Source: a virus. Taken from it: 26,854 bases of DNA. Positions 5,991 to 25,464 of this stretch are shown piece by piece. The notes below the pieces were generated by a model that worked only from the letters and a program-made list of their open reading frames with translations, had not been told where the DNA came from and searched no databases. The translations under genes and the position numbers were made by a program. Within the stretch, counting starts at the first letter, position 1, and each line of letters opens with the position of its first letter. The stretch spans positions 1 to 26,854 of IMG/VR virus record IMGVR_UViG_3300030419_003143; one strand, given 5' to 3'.

Positions 5991-5995
5991 GTTCT

Positions 5996-6067
5996 GTTAC
6001 AAATTGTTACAATTTAAATGAAGAAAAAGCTTGACTTATGTCAGGCTTTTTCCGTATATTATAGTGT
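5996..6067 (+). promoter_or_regulatory. GTTACA-box promoter 1 (25-bp spacing)
   Basis: GTTACA boxes start at 5996 and 6006. TTGACT is at 6031 (25 bp after the second box start) and TATATT at 6055-6060 with an 18-bp spacer. It is followed by the shared leader ATAGTGTATGATGAAAGAG. It drives the operon starting at 6104. Confidence 0.85.
6024..6051 (+). terminator. 12-bp hairpin overlapping a -35 element
   Basis: Bases 6024-6035 pair fully with 6040-6051 (one G-T pair) around a TTAT loop, with A5 on the left and T5 on the right arm. It has the shape of an intrinsic terminator for the metallopeptidase gene ending at 5990, yet it contains the TTGACT -35 of the next promoter. Confidence 0.6.
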
Positions 6068-6103
6068 ATGATGAAAGAGAATTTAAATAAAAAGGAAACA
6101 AGT

Positions 6104-11002: not shown

Positions 11003-11221
11003 ATGATACTATGGTATACTATTGATGATGTTTGTGGTGGTGTGTTGTGGTAGAGAGTGGGGAAAGGTGGTGAAACCACATAATAATGAGTGTCTTTAGT
11101 GTTATAATTTAATATGATGAACTTTAAAATATATAGTACATATACATATTGTAGAATACAAATTTTTTGTGGAAAAAGATAGCATGGCTACGAATACTTG
11201 TATCATACATAGTCTATCGTT
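11003..11221 (+). other. Non-coding stretch upstream of the structured RNA
   Basis: No supported gene. It begins with a G-rich segment (about 11031-11075, runs of GG and GGGG with GGTGGTGAAACCAC, a short 5-bp hairpin), then AT-rich DNA. The only start codon in good position at 11003 gives 16 residues. It may be the untranslated end of the preceding operon. Confidence 0.4.
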
Positions 11222-11293
11222 GTTACAATTTGTTACAATTTAAATGAAGAAAAAGCTTGGCTCATATAGGCAAAGCTTCGTATATTATAGTAT
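11222..11293 (+). promoter_or_regulatory. GTTACA-box promoter 3 (25-bp spacing) for the structured RNA
   Basis: Boxes start at 11222 and 11232. TTGGCT is at 11257 (25 bp after the second box start), TATATT at 11281-11286, spacer 18 bp. Transcription should start near 11293, three or four bases before the closing helix of the RNA. No start codon with a ribosome-binding site follows. Confidence 0.85.
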
Positions 11294-11653
11294 CAGTTGA
11301 GGAAATAGTTTTTTGAAATAGATTTACCGGTGCGGGGGTTCAGTATGAGAATGACTGAACAATAGCTTTCCGAAAAGGTTATAAGGTGACATCGAGGCCT
11401 GTAGTGGGCGATACAAGGTACACATCTGTATGAGTATCACAGGAGTAACTCCCTTCGAGATGGACAATATAGAAATAAAAAGACAAACTTGTGTTTTTGG
11501 CTATATTTGTGGGTATACAAGAGCCCCACTCACAACAGAAGAACCCCCAATTATTGAGAGATACCCGCATACTTAAAGGTTGAAGACAGGTTGCGTCAAA
11601 GCTTAACCCACCTTTCAGTCCCTCCGGGTTCTCTCCTCAAGTTTCATTACACG

Positions 11654-11686
11654 GGGTGTGGTCTTTTATTCCTTTCTACCACACTC
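11654..11686 (+). other. Hairpin 1 of the structured RNA, loop TTCCTTTCT
   Basis: GTGTGGT (11656-11662) pairs with ACCACAC (11678-11684), extendable by two pairs. The 15-nt loop contains TTCCTTTC, complementary to GAAAGGAA-type ribosome-binding sites such as those at 6091-6097, 9700-9706 and 14177-14184. Confidence 0.7.
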
Positions 11687-11690
11687 TATC

Positions 11691-11729
11691 GGGCCCATCG
11701 TTTACTCCTTTCCGATGGGCTCTTTTTTT
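11691..11729 (+). terminator. Intrinsic terminator and hairpin 2 of the structured RNA
   Basis: A 10-bp GC-rich stem (11691-11700 with 11713-11722, one G-T pair), loop TTTACTCCTTTC (11701-11712), then T7 (11723-11729). The loop contains CTCCTTT, complementary to AAAGGAG. Confidence 0.88.
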
Positions 11730-11906
11730 GCTTAGAATTATAGTTGTATAATACAAGTATATCTTGGATTGTCCATCCCGTTCGCTCAAAGATAGTATAT
11801 TTTTTTATGCTCCTCGTAAAAAAAGGCTTGGCTTATATATGAAAATAGTCGTAAATTATAGGGGGCTATATATAAAAAAAAAAGTTAAACCATAACTTTA
11901 AGCGTT
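11730..11906 (+). other. Non-coding stretch between the structured RNA and the CobS-like gene
   Basis: No ORF is supported. It contains TATCTT...AAGATA (11760-11796) followed by a T-rich tract, which may be a second weak terminator; a simple promoter at 11828; and the hairpin AAAGTTA/TAACTTT (11882-11900) preceded by a long A run. Confidence 0.45.
11828..11864 (+). promoter_or_regulatory. Promoter without boxes and without an adjacent ORF
   Basis: TTGGCT (11828-11833) preceded by AGGC, 18 bp, TAAATT (11852-11857). A transcript would begin near 11864 (GGGGGCTATATATA) and read a short hairpin, then the next promoter. It could give a short RNA or add to the 12005 transcript. Confidence 0.5.
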
Positions 11907-11967
11907 GTTACATATTGTTACAATTAAAGCTTTGATATAACGATATAATCTCCGTATATTATAGTGT
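11907..11967 (+). promoter_or_regulatory. GTTACA-box promoter 4 (15-bp spacing)
   Basis: Boxes start at 11907 and 11917. TTGATA is at 11932 (15 bp after the second box start), TATATT at 11955-11960, spacer 17 bp. A 14-codon ORF beginning at the predicted 5' end (ATG 11968) is out of frame with the gene at 12005 and ends across its start. Confidence 0.83.
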
Positions 11968-12004: not shown

Positions 12005-13213
12005 ATGGCTAAATCAATATTACTACCAGATGTGGTGGTTAAAGTAGAGAAATCAGGGAATCGGTACAATGCCTATTCTTCTGATGGTGTTAAGTATACA
12101 TCAGAGATTACGACAGGATGTCGTAAAAATGCTTATAATGGTGATTATCTTTTAGGTCGGTTCGTTTCAACAAATGGTAATAAAGGTTACGCTTGGCGTC
12201 GTATTACTGATAAGGTGTTAGCAGCTATGGGTGAGAATCCTGTTGTTAATAATACACCTTCAGACGACAACACTCCATCTGTTGAAATACCAAGTGAACA
12301 CGCTGAAGTAATGGCGTTTATACATAATAGTTATGGATTGAAACCACGAGGCTTAATGATGTCTGAACTCAAGTGGAAATACTTGGTTCGTTCTGCTGTT
12401 CGTGGTAAGAACATAATGATGACTGGTGCTGCTGGTTGTGGTAAGACTATGGCTGCTAAAGCTCTTGTTAATTCACTTGACCGACCTGATTTCTATTTCA
12501 ATCTTGGAGCTACCCAAGACCCGCGTGGTACTTTGATTGGTAATACTCACTTTGAAGATGGTAAAGGTACTTACTTTTCAGAGTCATTATTCGTTAAAGC
12601 TATTCAGACTCCAAACGCTGTAATACTATTAGATGAGTTGAGTAGGGCTCACCCAGATGCTTGGAACATCTTAATGACCGTTCTTGATTATGGTCAGAGG
12701 TACTTACGATTAGATGAACAAGATACCCAAGCTACTATTAAGGTTGCTGATGGTGTTACTTTTATTGCTACTGCTAATATAGGTAATGAGTATACATCAA
12801 CACGACAACTTGACAAAGCGTTAATGGATAGGTTCACTATTGTTGAGATGGACTTACTTAATGAGTCAGAAGAAACTGAATTACTGAACTATATGTTCCC
12901 TAATGTGGATAGTGTAGTATTAGGTAATGTGGCTAAGATAGCCTCTCTTACTCGAAGCGAAGCGACATCAGATACGGCTCGTATTCCTTTCGGTATTAGT
13001 ACTCGTACTACGGTTGAGTTGTGTGGCCTACTATATGATGGTTTTACTCTTGAGGAATCAGCTTCGGTGTGTATCTACCCTCAATACGACAACGCTGGTG
13101 GTGTTGATTCGGAGCGAACCTTCGTGAAACAGATTGTTCAAAAGTTCTGTGATGACGGAAGCGATGATGACTTGTTCAACGAGGACGAAGTAGAGGCTGC
13201 TACCTCAATGTAG
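12005..13213 (+). CDS. CobS/MoxR-type AAA+ ATPase
   Basis: After a 130-residue N-terminal region come Walker A GAAGCGKT (141-148), Walker B VILLDE (206-211), sensor 1 FIATAN (253-258) and DRF (275-277), the order and spacing of MoxR/CobS-class AAA+ proteins. AAAGGAG at 11993-11999 is its ribosome-binding site. Such ATPases work as hexamers with a VWA partner to remodel proteins or insert metals; the likely partner is the CobT-like protein at 22597, which uses the same promoter type. CobS-like genes are known from marine myophages. Arginine codons are mostly CGN here, whereas neighbours use AGA, which suggests separate acquisition or selection for expression. A true role in cobalt chelation is doubtful. 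Confidence 0.88.
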   Translation: MAKSILLPDVVVKVEKSGNRYNAYSSDGVKYTSEITTGCRKNAYNGDYLLGRFVSTNGNKGYAWRRITDKVLAAMGENPVVNNTPSDDNTPSVEIPSEHAEVMAFIHNSYGLKPRGLMMSELKWKYLVRSAVRGKNIMMTGAAGCGKTMAAKALVNSLDRPDFYFNLGATQDPRGTLIGNTHFEDGKGTYFSESLFVKAIQTPNAVILLDELSRAHPDAWNILMTVLDYGQRYLRLDEQDTQATIKVADGVTFIATANIGNEYTSTRQLDKALMDRFTIVEMDLLNESEETELLNYMFPNVDSVVLGNVAKIASLTRSEATSDTARIPFGISTRTTVELCGLLYDGFTLEESASVCIYPQYDNAGGVDSERTFVKQIVQKFCDDGSDDDLFNEDEVEAATSM

Positions 13214-14085: not shown

Positions 14086-14098
14086 CAACTTAAAACTT

Positions 14099-14170
14099 GT
14101 TACAACTTGTTACAATTTAATTATATAAAAAGCTTGGCTTGTATAGGTATTTATCCCTATATTATAGTGT
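14099..14170 (+). promoter_or_regulatory. GTTACA-box promoter 6 (25-bp spacing)
   Basis: Boxes start at 14099 and 14109; TTGGCT at 14134 (25 bp after the second box start); TATATT at 14158-14163, spacer 18 bp. An ATG at 14172, close to the predicted 5' end, is in frame with the gene at 14196. Confidence 0.84.
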
Positions 14171-14195
14171 AATGAGAAAGGAAAAAAATAAAGAA

Positions 14196-18101: not shown

Positions 18102-18280
18102 TGACAACACAAGAAAAAAAAGAAATGTTACCATACGCTTTATGGTTAAATTTATTTATAGGATTTTATAACTTATATCTATACGCACATAGTAGTTGGT
18201 GGTTTAATTTAATTATTGGTTCACTTAATATAGGTGTATGGGTATTTAATAGGAGAACAGCTTTTAAATTATGGAAGTAG
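18101..18280 (+). CDS. 59-residue membrane protein with two segments
   Basis: GAGGGGG (18082-18088) precedes ATG 18101, which overlaps the previous stop by one base. Segments at about residues 11-28 and 33-50 are hydrophobic and rich in Trp, Tyr and Asn. The product ends in a basic tail and overlaps the cysteine synthase gene by 10 bp. Confidence 0.63.
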   Translation: MTTQEKKEMLPYALWLNLFIGFYNLYLYAHSSWWFNLIIGSLNIGVWVFNRRTAFKLWK

Positions 18281-19140
18281 GAAAAACACCACTGATAAAA
18301 TTATCAGATAAATTATATGGTAAACTTGAAGCCGTCAATCCTGGTGGTTCAATAAAAGATAGACCTGTTAAATATATTTTAGACCACGCTGAAGAAAATG
18401 GATTACTTAAAAAAGGTGATACTATTGTAGAAGCTACAAGTGGTAACACAGGTATATCATTAGCTATGATGTGTGCAGAACGAGGATACAAATGTCAAAT
18501 TGTAATGCCATCGGATATGTCAGAAGAACGAAAGAAGATGTTAAAGTTTTTTGGCGCTAAACTAATAGAAGTTGACAAGGGTGATTTTGATAAAGCGATA
18601 GAATGGAAAAATATTTTAGTAAGAGAACAAAGATATTTCTCTTTGAATCAATTTGACAATCCATTAAATATTGAATGTCATAGAGAAACAACATGTAAAG
18701 AAATATTATTTGACACCATGTTAAAAGATTATGATTCGAACATATCAGCTTTTATTGGTGGAACTGGAACTGGTGGTACTTTAATGGGTATCCATCAGGG
18801 GTTTAGAGCTCACGGTATGAATACAAAGATTATAGCAGTAGAACCAGCTGAATCACCTGTAATGTCTGGTGGTGAAAAAGGACTTCATGGTATTCAAGGT
18901 ATTGGTGATGGCTCAAAGTTTTTAGTTGATTTAGATGTCGTAGATGAAGTGATAACTATATCCACAAATGAAGCTAAAATAAGAAGTAGAATGTTAGCGA
19001 GAGATAATGGTTTATTTGTTGGGATATCATCAGGAGCAAATGTATTAGCTGCTGAACAATGGATAGAAGAAAATAATCCTGATGGTATAGTAGTTACAAT
19101 TTTATGTGACAGAGGAGAAAGGTATTTTAGTGTCTATTAG
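18271..19140 (+). CDS. cysK: Cysteine synthase (O-acetylserine sulfhydrylase), PLP fold II
   Basis: The PLP lysine is K29 in NPGGSIKDRP, the phosphate- and substrate-binding loops are TSGNTG (56-61) and GGTGTGGT, and a late SSGAN block is present. The family joins sulfide to O-acetylserine to form cysteine. At 289 residues it is a little shorter than cellular CysK and ends with CDRGERYFS. It starts in GGAGAA context inside the previous gene. As a phage auxiliary gene it may supply cysteine or sulfur for the many cysteine-rich phage proteins, or support host sulfur metabolism during infection. CysK and CysM cannot be told apart here. Confidence 0.88.
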   Translation: MEVGKTPLIKLSDKLYGKLEAVNPGGSIKDRPVKYILDHAEENGLLKKGDTIVEATSGNTGISLAMMCAERGYKCQIVMPSDMSEERKKMLKFFGAKLIEVDKGDFDKAIEWKNILVREQRYFSLNQFDNPLNIECHRETTCKEILFDTMLKDYDSNISAFIGGTGTGGTLMGIHQGFRAHGMNTKIIAVEPAESPVMSGGEKGLHGIQGIGDGSKFLVDLDVVDEVITISTNEAKIRSRMLARDNGLFVGISSGANVLAAEQWIEENNPDGIVVTILCDRGERYFSVY

Positions 19141-20526: not shown

Positions 20527-21456
20527 TTAATCATACTCACATTGAGTTCCATCATCCCAACAAGCATTTGAATTATAATTGGCCGCGGCTGGGTCTGTAC
20601 AACCTAAATCTACTGACCCATGAGTACAATCGTCTGTAGATTGATTTAAAATCATCTGTACTGTATTCACCACATCAAGAACATCTACACTACCATTTTG
20701 GTTGACATCTAATCCATTAGCTATTAACTCTTCTTGTGTAATTCCATCGACCTGACTTAATACACCATTAACAATAGCCATCGCATCGAGAAGATTTACA
20801 CTACCATCTTGATTTACATCATATGGTGAATCACTATATTCACATTGAGTTCCATCATCCCAACAAGCATTTGAATTATAATTATCTGCTTGTGGGTCTG
20901 TACAACCTAAACCTGCTGACCCATGAGCAAACTCAGGGTCTGTACAATCTGTTGTAGATTGAGTTGGAGGTTGATATTGTATCCCACCTTCAACCATAAC
21001 TATTTGATTACCACCAGCCCAAGTTGGTGTTTGTGGTATCAATTGCGCGTCAATGATTGAATTAGCAGCTGCAATATAAACTTTAAATATGGGTACTTCA
21101 CCAAAATTCATATATCCCTCAGAATAGAAATAACCATCATTACCCATTATAGGTATATCTGTCATTGTTGATGTACTAACTACTTGACGAGCTCCTACAA
21201 GGACTCCAGATGGTGTAAAAGCACCAATCCAATCATCACTAGTTAGTGGAGTTTCTGTTGTTCTTATATAATAAAAACCTTGTGAGGTTGATAAACTAAA
21301 AGTTCCAAACGGCGTGTCATATTGGTTATCTGATTGTATTACGGGTGTATTATTACGAAGACTATAAGTTTTACTTTGAACTCTTGTAGAGTTAAATTTA
21401 GCTCTTTGTTGTCTGTTTATATTACGATTACCACTATTTGTTTTTCTATAAGCCAT
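20527..21456 (-). CDS. Dockerin- and GCTDP-repeat adhesin-like protein
   Basis: This is the only minus-strand gene. Residues 1-40 are basic without a signal peptide. Residues about 45-150 contain DDWIGAFTPSGVLVGARQ, a beta domain common in secreted proteins of marine Marinimicrobia and Bacteroidota. Then come GCTDP...NYNSNACWDDGTQCEY modules flanking two dockerin-like calcium repeats (DVNQDGSVNLLDA and DVNQNGSVDVLDV). The mixture suggests a virion-surface or adhesion protein captured from a host-like exoprotein. The lack of a signal peptide fits assembly on the virion rather than secretion. Confidence 0.8.
   Translation of the reverse strand: MAYRKTNSGNRNINRQQRAKFNSTRVQSKTYSLRNNTPVIQSDNQYDTPFGTFSLSTSQGFYYIRTTETPLTSDDWIGAFTPSGVLVGARQVVSTSTMTDIPIMGNDGYFYSEGYMNFGEVPIFKVYIAAANSIIDAQLIPQTPTWAGGNQIVMVEGGIQYQPPTQSTTDCTDPEFAHGSAGLGCTDPQADNYNSNACWDDGTQCEYSDSPYDVNQDGSVNLLDAMAIVNGVLSQVDGITQEELIANGLDVNQNGSVDVLDVVNTVQMILNQSTDDCTHGSVDLGCTDPAAANYNSNACWDDGTQCEYD
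20537..20580. repeat. 44-bp exact direct repeat, copy 1
   Basis: Identical to 20840-20883 and part of a longer imperfect repeat of about 100 bp that encodes the two GCTDP-type modules of the minus-strand protein. The DNA identity is far above what conserved peptides need, so the duplication is recent or homogenised. Confidence 0.9.
20840..20883. repeat. 44-bp exact direct repeat, copy 2
   Basis: Second copy of the repeat at 20537-20580, followed like the first by the 18-bp exact stretch GGGTCTGTACAACCTAAA. The two copies flank the dockerin pair, so recombination between them would delete it. Confidence 0.9.
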
Positions 21457-24700: not shown

Positions 24701-24907
24701 ATGAATAAAGAAGATAGAATGTATGAAGATGTACATAACTATACCAAATACAAATTGGTAGAAATGTTAATTAATAGAATGCATGATGATAAACTTGATT
24801 TAGATAATTTAAATTCTATTGAGGATTTAGCTGATGATGTCTTGAAAGTTTTATCTATTGCAGGTCTAAAATACTATAATCAAATGAAAGGAAATTTTAA
24901 TAAATGA
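24701..24907 (+). CDS. Small helical acidic protein, unknown function
   Basis: It starts one base after the VWA gene stop with TTGGAGAAA as ribosome-binding site. The 68 residues are helical with Asp/Asn/Leu repeats (KLDLDNLNSIEDLADDVLKV). The stop overlaps the nucleotidase ATG (ATGA). Co-transcription with the VWA gene suggests a possible accessory role. Confidence 0.65.
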   Translation: MNKEDRMYEDVHNYTKYKLVEMLINRMHDDKLDLDNLNSIEDLADDVLKVLSIAGLKYYNQMKGNFNK

Positions 24908-25464
24908 GAATAGGAATAGATTGTGATGGTGTATTAAGAGATTTTATACCTTGTCTTATAGATGGTATTAAAGAAACTCACCCCGAACATGCTGATAAAA
25001 TTCTAACTCCAACCTCTTGGGATTGGGAACAATGGTTACCATTCTGGACAGAAGAAGAAACTGAAAAATATGTTTTTGAAGATAACTTTTTAGATTTCTT
25101 TGGGCCGGATTGTCCACCAATCCAATCATCATTTGAAGATTGGAATAAGTTAAGAGCTTGGGCTATTGAGAATGACCACGAATTAATTTTAGTATCAGCT
25201 CAAAGAGAACATTGTGAAGAACCAACTACTGAATGGTTACAGCGATGGGGATTTGTGTTTGATGAAATTCATTATACTCACGACAAATGGTCGATTGATG
25301 TTGATGTTCTTATTGATGATTCTCCAGAAAAATTAAAAAAGTTCAAAGAGAGAAGTGTTAATTATGGAACTGCGATTTGTATGAATCAAACTTGGAACAA
25401 AGATGTCAGAGACAACTATATGAATATTGACAGATTGTCAGATATTATGACACGAGTTTTCTAA
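24904..25464 (+). CDS. HAD-family 5'(3')-deoxyribonucleotidase-like protein
   Basis: IDCDGVLRD at residues 5-13 gives the DxD nucleophile pair (D6, D8) and LIDDSPEKLKKF the late acidic motif. ILVSAQREHCEEPTTEWLQR fits motif II of the mitochondrial-type nucleotidase (NT5C) group. Such enzymes dephosphorylate deoxynucleoside monophosphates and shape the nucleotide pool; phages often carry one. The 186-residue size fits. It is coupled to the gene before it through ATGA. Confidence 0.8.
   Translation: MRIGIDCDGVLRDFIPCLIDGIKETHPEHADKILTPTSWDWEQWLPFWTEEETEKYVFEDNFLDFFGPDCPPIQSSFEDWNKLRAWAIENDHELILVSAQREHCEEPTTEWLQRWGFVFDEIHYTHDKWSIDVDVLIDDSPEKLKKFKERSVNYGTAICMNQTWNKDVRDNYMNIDRLSDIMTRVF

Follow-up and report, generated by a model that had tools for sequence, protein, structure and literature searches.

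The manA RNA (RF01745) was described in 2010 by Weinberg et al. as a likely cis-regulatory element and riboswitch candidate; it is known almost exclusively from marine metagenomes, and its pseudoknot is uncertain (PMC2864571). Rfam release 14.3 contains a correction of the entry, and the application of CaCoFold to the source alignment gave 48 significant pairs (PMC7779021). Cyanophage S-CREM1 harbors wcaG, manA and abiF RNAs within ~1 kilobase (PMC9964418), and a Bifidobacterium megaplasmid also carries manA (PMC10832533). We found no published description of the manA subgroup or of the hairpin (module B) reported here.

The window, i.e. the whole stretch of 26,854 nucleotides that was analyzed (IMG/VR virus record IMGVR_UViG_3300030419_003143), contains a structured phage RNA of ~435 nt in a transcription unit of its own. 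An earlier note, made from the sequence alone, had placed such an RNA at 11293-11729, and its promoter and terminator signals as well as covariation confirm it there. The features of the locus are as follows:

11221-11291, + strand: promoter copy with -35 box TTGGCT (11257-11262) and -10 box TATATT (11281-11286), a member of the promoter repeat family of the phage
11293-11729, + strand: predicted noncoding transcript, from ~7 nt past the -10 box to the T-run of the terminator (both ends predicted)
11325-11538, + strand: module A, divergent manA RNA (RF01745; covariance match 49.6 bits, E 1.5e-13; reciprocal model)
11334-11341, + strand: 5' strand of the subgroup-specific closing helix, GGGGGUUC, pairing with 11541-11548
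11541-11548, + strand: 3' strand of the closing helix, GAACCCCC, pairing with 11334-11341
11556-11638, + strand: module B, hairpin GAGAGA-U-ACCCG-CAUACUU...CAGUCCCUC-CGGGU-UCUCUC (covariation; without Rfam match)
11653-11687, + strand: module C, hairpin 1 with loop UUUUAUUCCUUUCU (comparison of hairpins among phages)
11691-11729, + strand: module C, hairpin 2 with loop UUUACUCCUUUC, which with T7 forms the intrinsic terminator (hairpin comparison, terminator search)
11903-11960, + strand: separate promoter for the next gene, which the promoter search places at 11932-11960 (promoter search and repeat family)
12005-13213, + strand: gene for a MoxR/CobS-like AAA ATPase (moxR), a neighbor outside the RNA

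The promoter claimed by the earlier note, whose -10 box ends at 11286, is a copy of a repeat family within the 37,474-base virus record. Further copies are located at 5995-6065 (85% identical) and 14097-14168 (81%), with shorter ones elsewhere. These two directly precede ORFs starting at 6068 and 14172, whose ATGs come a few bases past the -10 box, and this position makes both copies credible as promoters. Several ORFs of the window, near 5995-6068, 14097-14172, 13458, 22561, 9695 and 21548, start just a few bases past a -10 box and look leaderless. The strong terminator of the note, a hairpin at 11691-11722 followed by T7, proved to be the only strong intrinsic terminator found within the window; a suhB match at this site in a permissive Rfam scan was rejected (E 0.18). 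No convincing protein gene is present in 11293-11729, again as claimed, and internal ORFs on the + strand comprise at most 50 amino acids. Elsewhere the window contains auxiliary-type genes for a nucleotide-sugar epimerase/dehydratase (1582-2511, +), a PLP-dependent enzyme (18271-19140, +) and an NT5C-type deoxyribonucleotidase (24904-25464, +), as well as one long minus-strand ORF with a dockerin type I domain (20527-21456).

The folding energy of the unit is unremarkable (z -1.28; 12 of 100 shuffles fold as well), and free energy alone is uninformative here; the evidence that establishes its structure is covariation. Nothing in the leaders of the homologs corresponds to the outermost helix of the minimum free energy fold (TTGAGGA near 11297 with TCCTCAA near 11634). 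ARAGORN predicted no tmRNA, which would combine a tRNA-like domain with a tag reading frame, in the window, in agreement with the absence of tmRNA hallmarks noted before. The unit resembles GOLLD and ROOL in its phage setting and as a structured RNA of some hundred bases, but it differs in that the Rfam models of both give no match up to E 10, so the earlier failure to assign it to either stands. The nearest annotated phage records provided no useful relative. Among related phages, tmRNA genes are predicted in L142 (16511-16854), L162 (4193-4547), L166 (19271-19678) and L200 (17016-17425), and L143 has 26 predicted tRNA genes. A U6GAAA-like leader (11308-11317 in the window, and in homologs) precedes manA and other structured RNAs in many related phages.

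The default Rfam scan of the window reports two tRNAs only, and a permissive scan was needed to detect that 11325-11538 is a divergent manA RNA. The match, with its E-value calculated for the record, covers the full length of the model (positions 1-192). Its 49.6 bits lie just under the curated gathering score of 55.2 bits, which is a conservative threshold and not a structural feature, and the default scan therefore misses it. The manA model had no match in 14 control genomes. The "unknown class" of the earlier note is thus untenable for the 5' half, for which the covariance-model search returned a known family, an outcome that the note itself had listed as a refutation, and holds for module B, which is without a match in Rfam 15.

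Relatives of the phage were retrieved via its MoxR protein. Three of them (L148, L149 and L151) harbor the same RNA at the same place with 71-78% identity and manA matches of 34-38 bits. Four further copies of the subgroup (L240-L243) are located ahead of a different gene, with a promoter in between; judged by its sequence, this gene presumably encodes a T4 gp32-type single-strand-binding protein. The consensus fold of these eight homologs, including the window, has 57 pairs with 98.2% of cells paired, a value that leans towards the structure because the latter was derived from the same alignment. Stronger evidence comes from the 18 pairs that are changed on both sides in the eight sequences, more than in any of 500 shuffles or any slid control, which is the kind of covariation among homologs that the earlier note had named as a check. 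A reciprocal model built from the seven other homologs found the window at 160 bits and, in 30 canonical manA contigs, recovered ~10 known manA places (best E 5e-8) along with one doubtful extra match. The family tie accordingly holds both ways, from the Rfam model to the window and from the subgroup model to canonical manA. It rests on structure-aware models, since a sequence-only profile of the subgroup finds the window (8.6e-56) and does not find canonical manA.

Module A shares with RF01745 the phage setting, the conserved stretches UGACUGAAYAA, UAAGGUG and GGGUAUACA, and across model positions 1-192 the same helix order, with P3, the junction P4 enclosing three hairpins, P8/P9 and P10 seen in the cmscan alignment and the eight-homolog fold. 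It differs by an extra UUCAGU/ACUGAA hairpin and by the extra closing helix GGGGGUUC/GAACCCCC, which is kept in 8/8 homologs with one compensatory change (L151). P1 and the pseudoknot are weak, and the score lies under gathering. The pairs of the model's pseudoknot GGGAG/CUCCC, which joins the 5' region with the 3' end, fit poorly; alternative pairings are UGAG/CUCA in the window and UGAAA/UUUCA in L148, and they are absent from some homologs. The pseudoknot proposed earlier between 11403-11409 and 11523-11530 has 7/7 pairs in the window and just 3-5/7 in the homologs, hence it is not conserved. An initial short DNA pattern based on the GGGTATACA hairpin gave matches that were not manA according to Rfam and are due to chance.

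The filing of manA as a cis-regulatory riboswitch candidate (PMC2864571) leads to the main rival to an independent RNA operon, namely, a riboswitch-type attenuator in the leader of the next gene, in which manA would sense a metabolite and set terminator read-through into moxR/cobS. In the window, L148, L149 and L151 the unit does indeed precede moxR, with a terminator after the manA domain, and canonical viral manA copies are usually found a short distance ahead of a same-strand ORF, as expected of a cis element, which counts against the operon. However, module A is separated from moxR by a terminator and by the promoter of that gene, which is not the 5' UTR position of a cis-regulatory RNA. 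More than 460 nt plus module B separate manA from moxR, other phages fill its slot with a tRNA or a cloverleaf, and members of this subgroup in L240-L243 stand ahead of another gene, there too with an intervening promoter. Weighing both sides, we regard a cis-regulatory leader as rather unlikely. Module A also departs from canonical manA in being followed by module B and the terminator hairpins rather than by a closely placed gene.

The canonical viral copies were measured over 107 viral contigs (L020-L139 series). In 86 copies (~1 expected) a sigma-70 promoter that matches at 11 or 12 of 12 positions is located at the 5' end of the RNA, and in 65 (~10 expected) a T-rich run lies just past the 3' end. 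More distant relatives (L220, L221, L223, L224, L225/L229) exhibit a tandem manA pair followed by a large terminator; the next gene, which in L225 reads like Hsp20/IbpA, has a promoter of its own. Such tandem units (L220, L221, L223, L225) have in common with that of the window a U6GA-type leader, manA, a terminator and the separate promoter, but they differ by two manA copies, the absence of module B and another terminator.

Module B looks new, with nothing matching in a permissive scan of Rfam 15. BLAST with the 3' part of the unit revealed that 11614-11640 is common to phages without manA at that place. The general form of the hairpin is GAGA..N5-CAUACUU-variable-CAGUCCCUC-N5'-UCUCUCCUCA. 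N5 and N5' are perfectly complementary in 13/13 distinct copies, although N5 occurs in eight versions (ACCCG, ACCGG, ACCUG, ACCAC, ACGCU, GUGCU, ACCGC and GCCCG). In the alignment 97.3% of cells are paired and 26 are doubly changed; the covariation score amounts to 0.443, compared with 0.142 in shuffled alignments (0/500 reached it) and no more than 0.064 in slid ones. There is hardly any variation in the inner helix ACU/AGU (three pairs) or in the internal loop CAU/CCCUC. A model of module B found one strong copy per genome in 14 of 35 phage records, 10 of which had supplied its sequences. Its two weak matches in Bacteroidales contigs (E 0.005 and 0.009) are look-alikes with 2/5 stem pairs, a pattern search of cellular genomes returned only look-alikes with at most 3/5, and a pattern match in L234 is due to chance. 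A pairing of its CAUACU/CAGUC with AGUAUG/GACUG of manA was dropped, because module B persists in phages without manA.

Module B is located in the intergenic region ahead of moxR in 11 records, which counts against the operon. The slot before it is exchangeable, and it is occupied by manA in the window, L148, L149 and L151, by what reads as the 3' half of a tRNA-like element in L181, and by a tRNA-like cloverleaf in L142, L144 and L147. The promoter itself directly precedes module B in L153, and an ORF in L186. The cloverleaf (GCGG...CAAGAGAGATTC...GGGCAGTTCC...CCGCTC) was observed upstream of moxR in L142 (~9659), L144 (~9436 and ~9519), L145 (~9425), L147 (~9611) and L150 (~3319); ARAGORN made no call for it, and Rfam was blank in L144. 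Three further related records have module B at another place: a CobT-like VWA gene precedes it, and shortly after it comes the ribosome-binding site of a 5'(3')-deoxyribonucleotidase gene, an arrangement that looks cis-regulatory and again counts against the operon. It is absent in front of the nucleotidase genes of the phages of the window, L141, L144, L148 and L186. The location of module B away from moxR in these three records, the varying slot and the separate moxR promoter support an independent RNA operon. A function of module B at the DNA level, for example as a replication or packaging site with incidental transcription, would fit its single strong copy per genome in the records searched, but its orientation in the sense of the neighboring genes and its position inside predicted transcripts, at the three nucleotidase loci as well as the noncoding-RNA loci, make this very improbable.

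Bacterial sRNAs with C-rich loops that bind Shine-Dalgarno sequences exist. The unit resembles them in its constant CUCCUUU-type loops on changing stems and in the terminator as last hairpin; it differs by the attachment to manA and module B. The loops of the two terminal hairpins are close to UUAUUCCUUUCU and UUUAACUCCUUUU, with stems that differ from phage to phage, whereas the loops of their other terminators are short and different. The module C loops show complementarity to AAAGGAG, which is found upstream of 8.9% of the ORFs in these phages versus 0.3% of random places; the corresponding values for AGGAG are 24% and 1.4%. The recurrence of these loops on different stems and their match to the Shine-Dalgarno sequence of the phages support the operon reading; C-like hairpins are also present after moxR in L140, L142 and L147, which counts against it.

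A plain stable-RNA operon would have modules A and B processed out like phage tRNAs to act separately, with the module C loops representing a targetless style of terminator. The sharing of the slot with tRNA and tRNA-like elements is in line with this scenario, and so are the same hairpins that close operons without module B (L145, L150) or come after moxR. The unit and phage tRNA operons are both free-standing RNA transcripts, and a tRNA is part of the corresponding operon in L145 (tRNA-like in L181), but that of the window has manA and module B and lacks a tRNA. The constancy of the loops on changing stems and the different loops of the other terminators ask for some selected role, and we consider the plain stable-RNA operon improbable.

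On balance, the probable explanation is a modular phage noncoding-RNA operon with a ~435 nt transcript that combines manA, module B and the predicted anti-Shine-Dalgarno loops of module C. The phage promoter at 11221-11291 would make a single transcript that stops at the intrinsic terminator and carries the manA-family RNA, the new hairpin and the two CUCCUUU-type hairpins in this order. As moxR has its own promoter, the transcript probably works in trans as a free RNA rather than as a moxR leader. More speculatively, the exposed CUCCUUU loops (ACUCCUUU) might mask the AAAGGAG Shine-Dalgarno motifs in mRNAs of the phage or its host by base pairing and thereby dampen translation, and a ligand or protein bound by modules A and B might tune stability or activity.

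We tentatively propose, as quite possible, that module B is a small structured phage RNA of a new class, with a near-invariant CAUACUU/CAGUCCCUC loop in a freely covarying stem and one copy per genome, in a noncoding-RNA operon or an mRNA leader, and that manA acts in trans in these phages, as a free-standing RNA and not as the riboswitch of the next gene. The subgroup lies below the Rfam cut-off, hence default annotation misses it. Module B is a compact, strongly covarying RNA whose near-invariant internal loop lends itself to direct probing for a protein or ligand. The manA RNA has been a riboswitch candidate since 2010, and we found neither a ligand nor a proven target named in the literature; this locus, together with the tandem terminated units and the promoters before most of the measured viral copies, makes a free-RNA role of manA testable.
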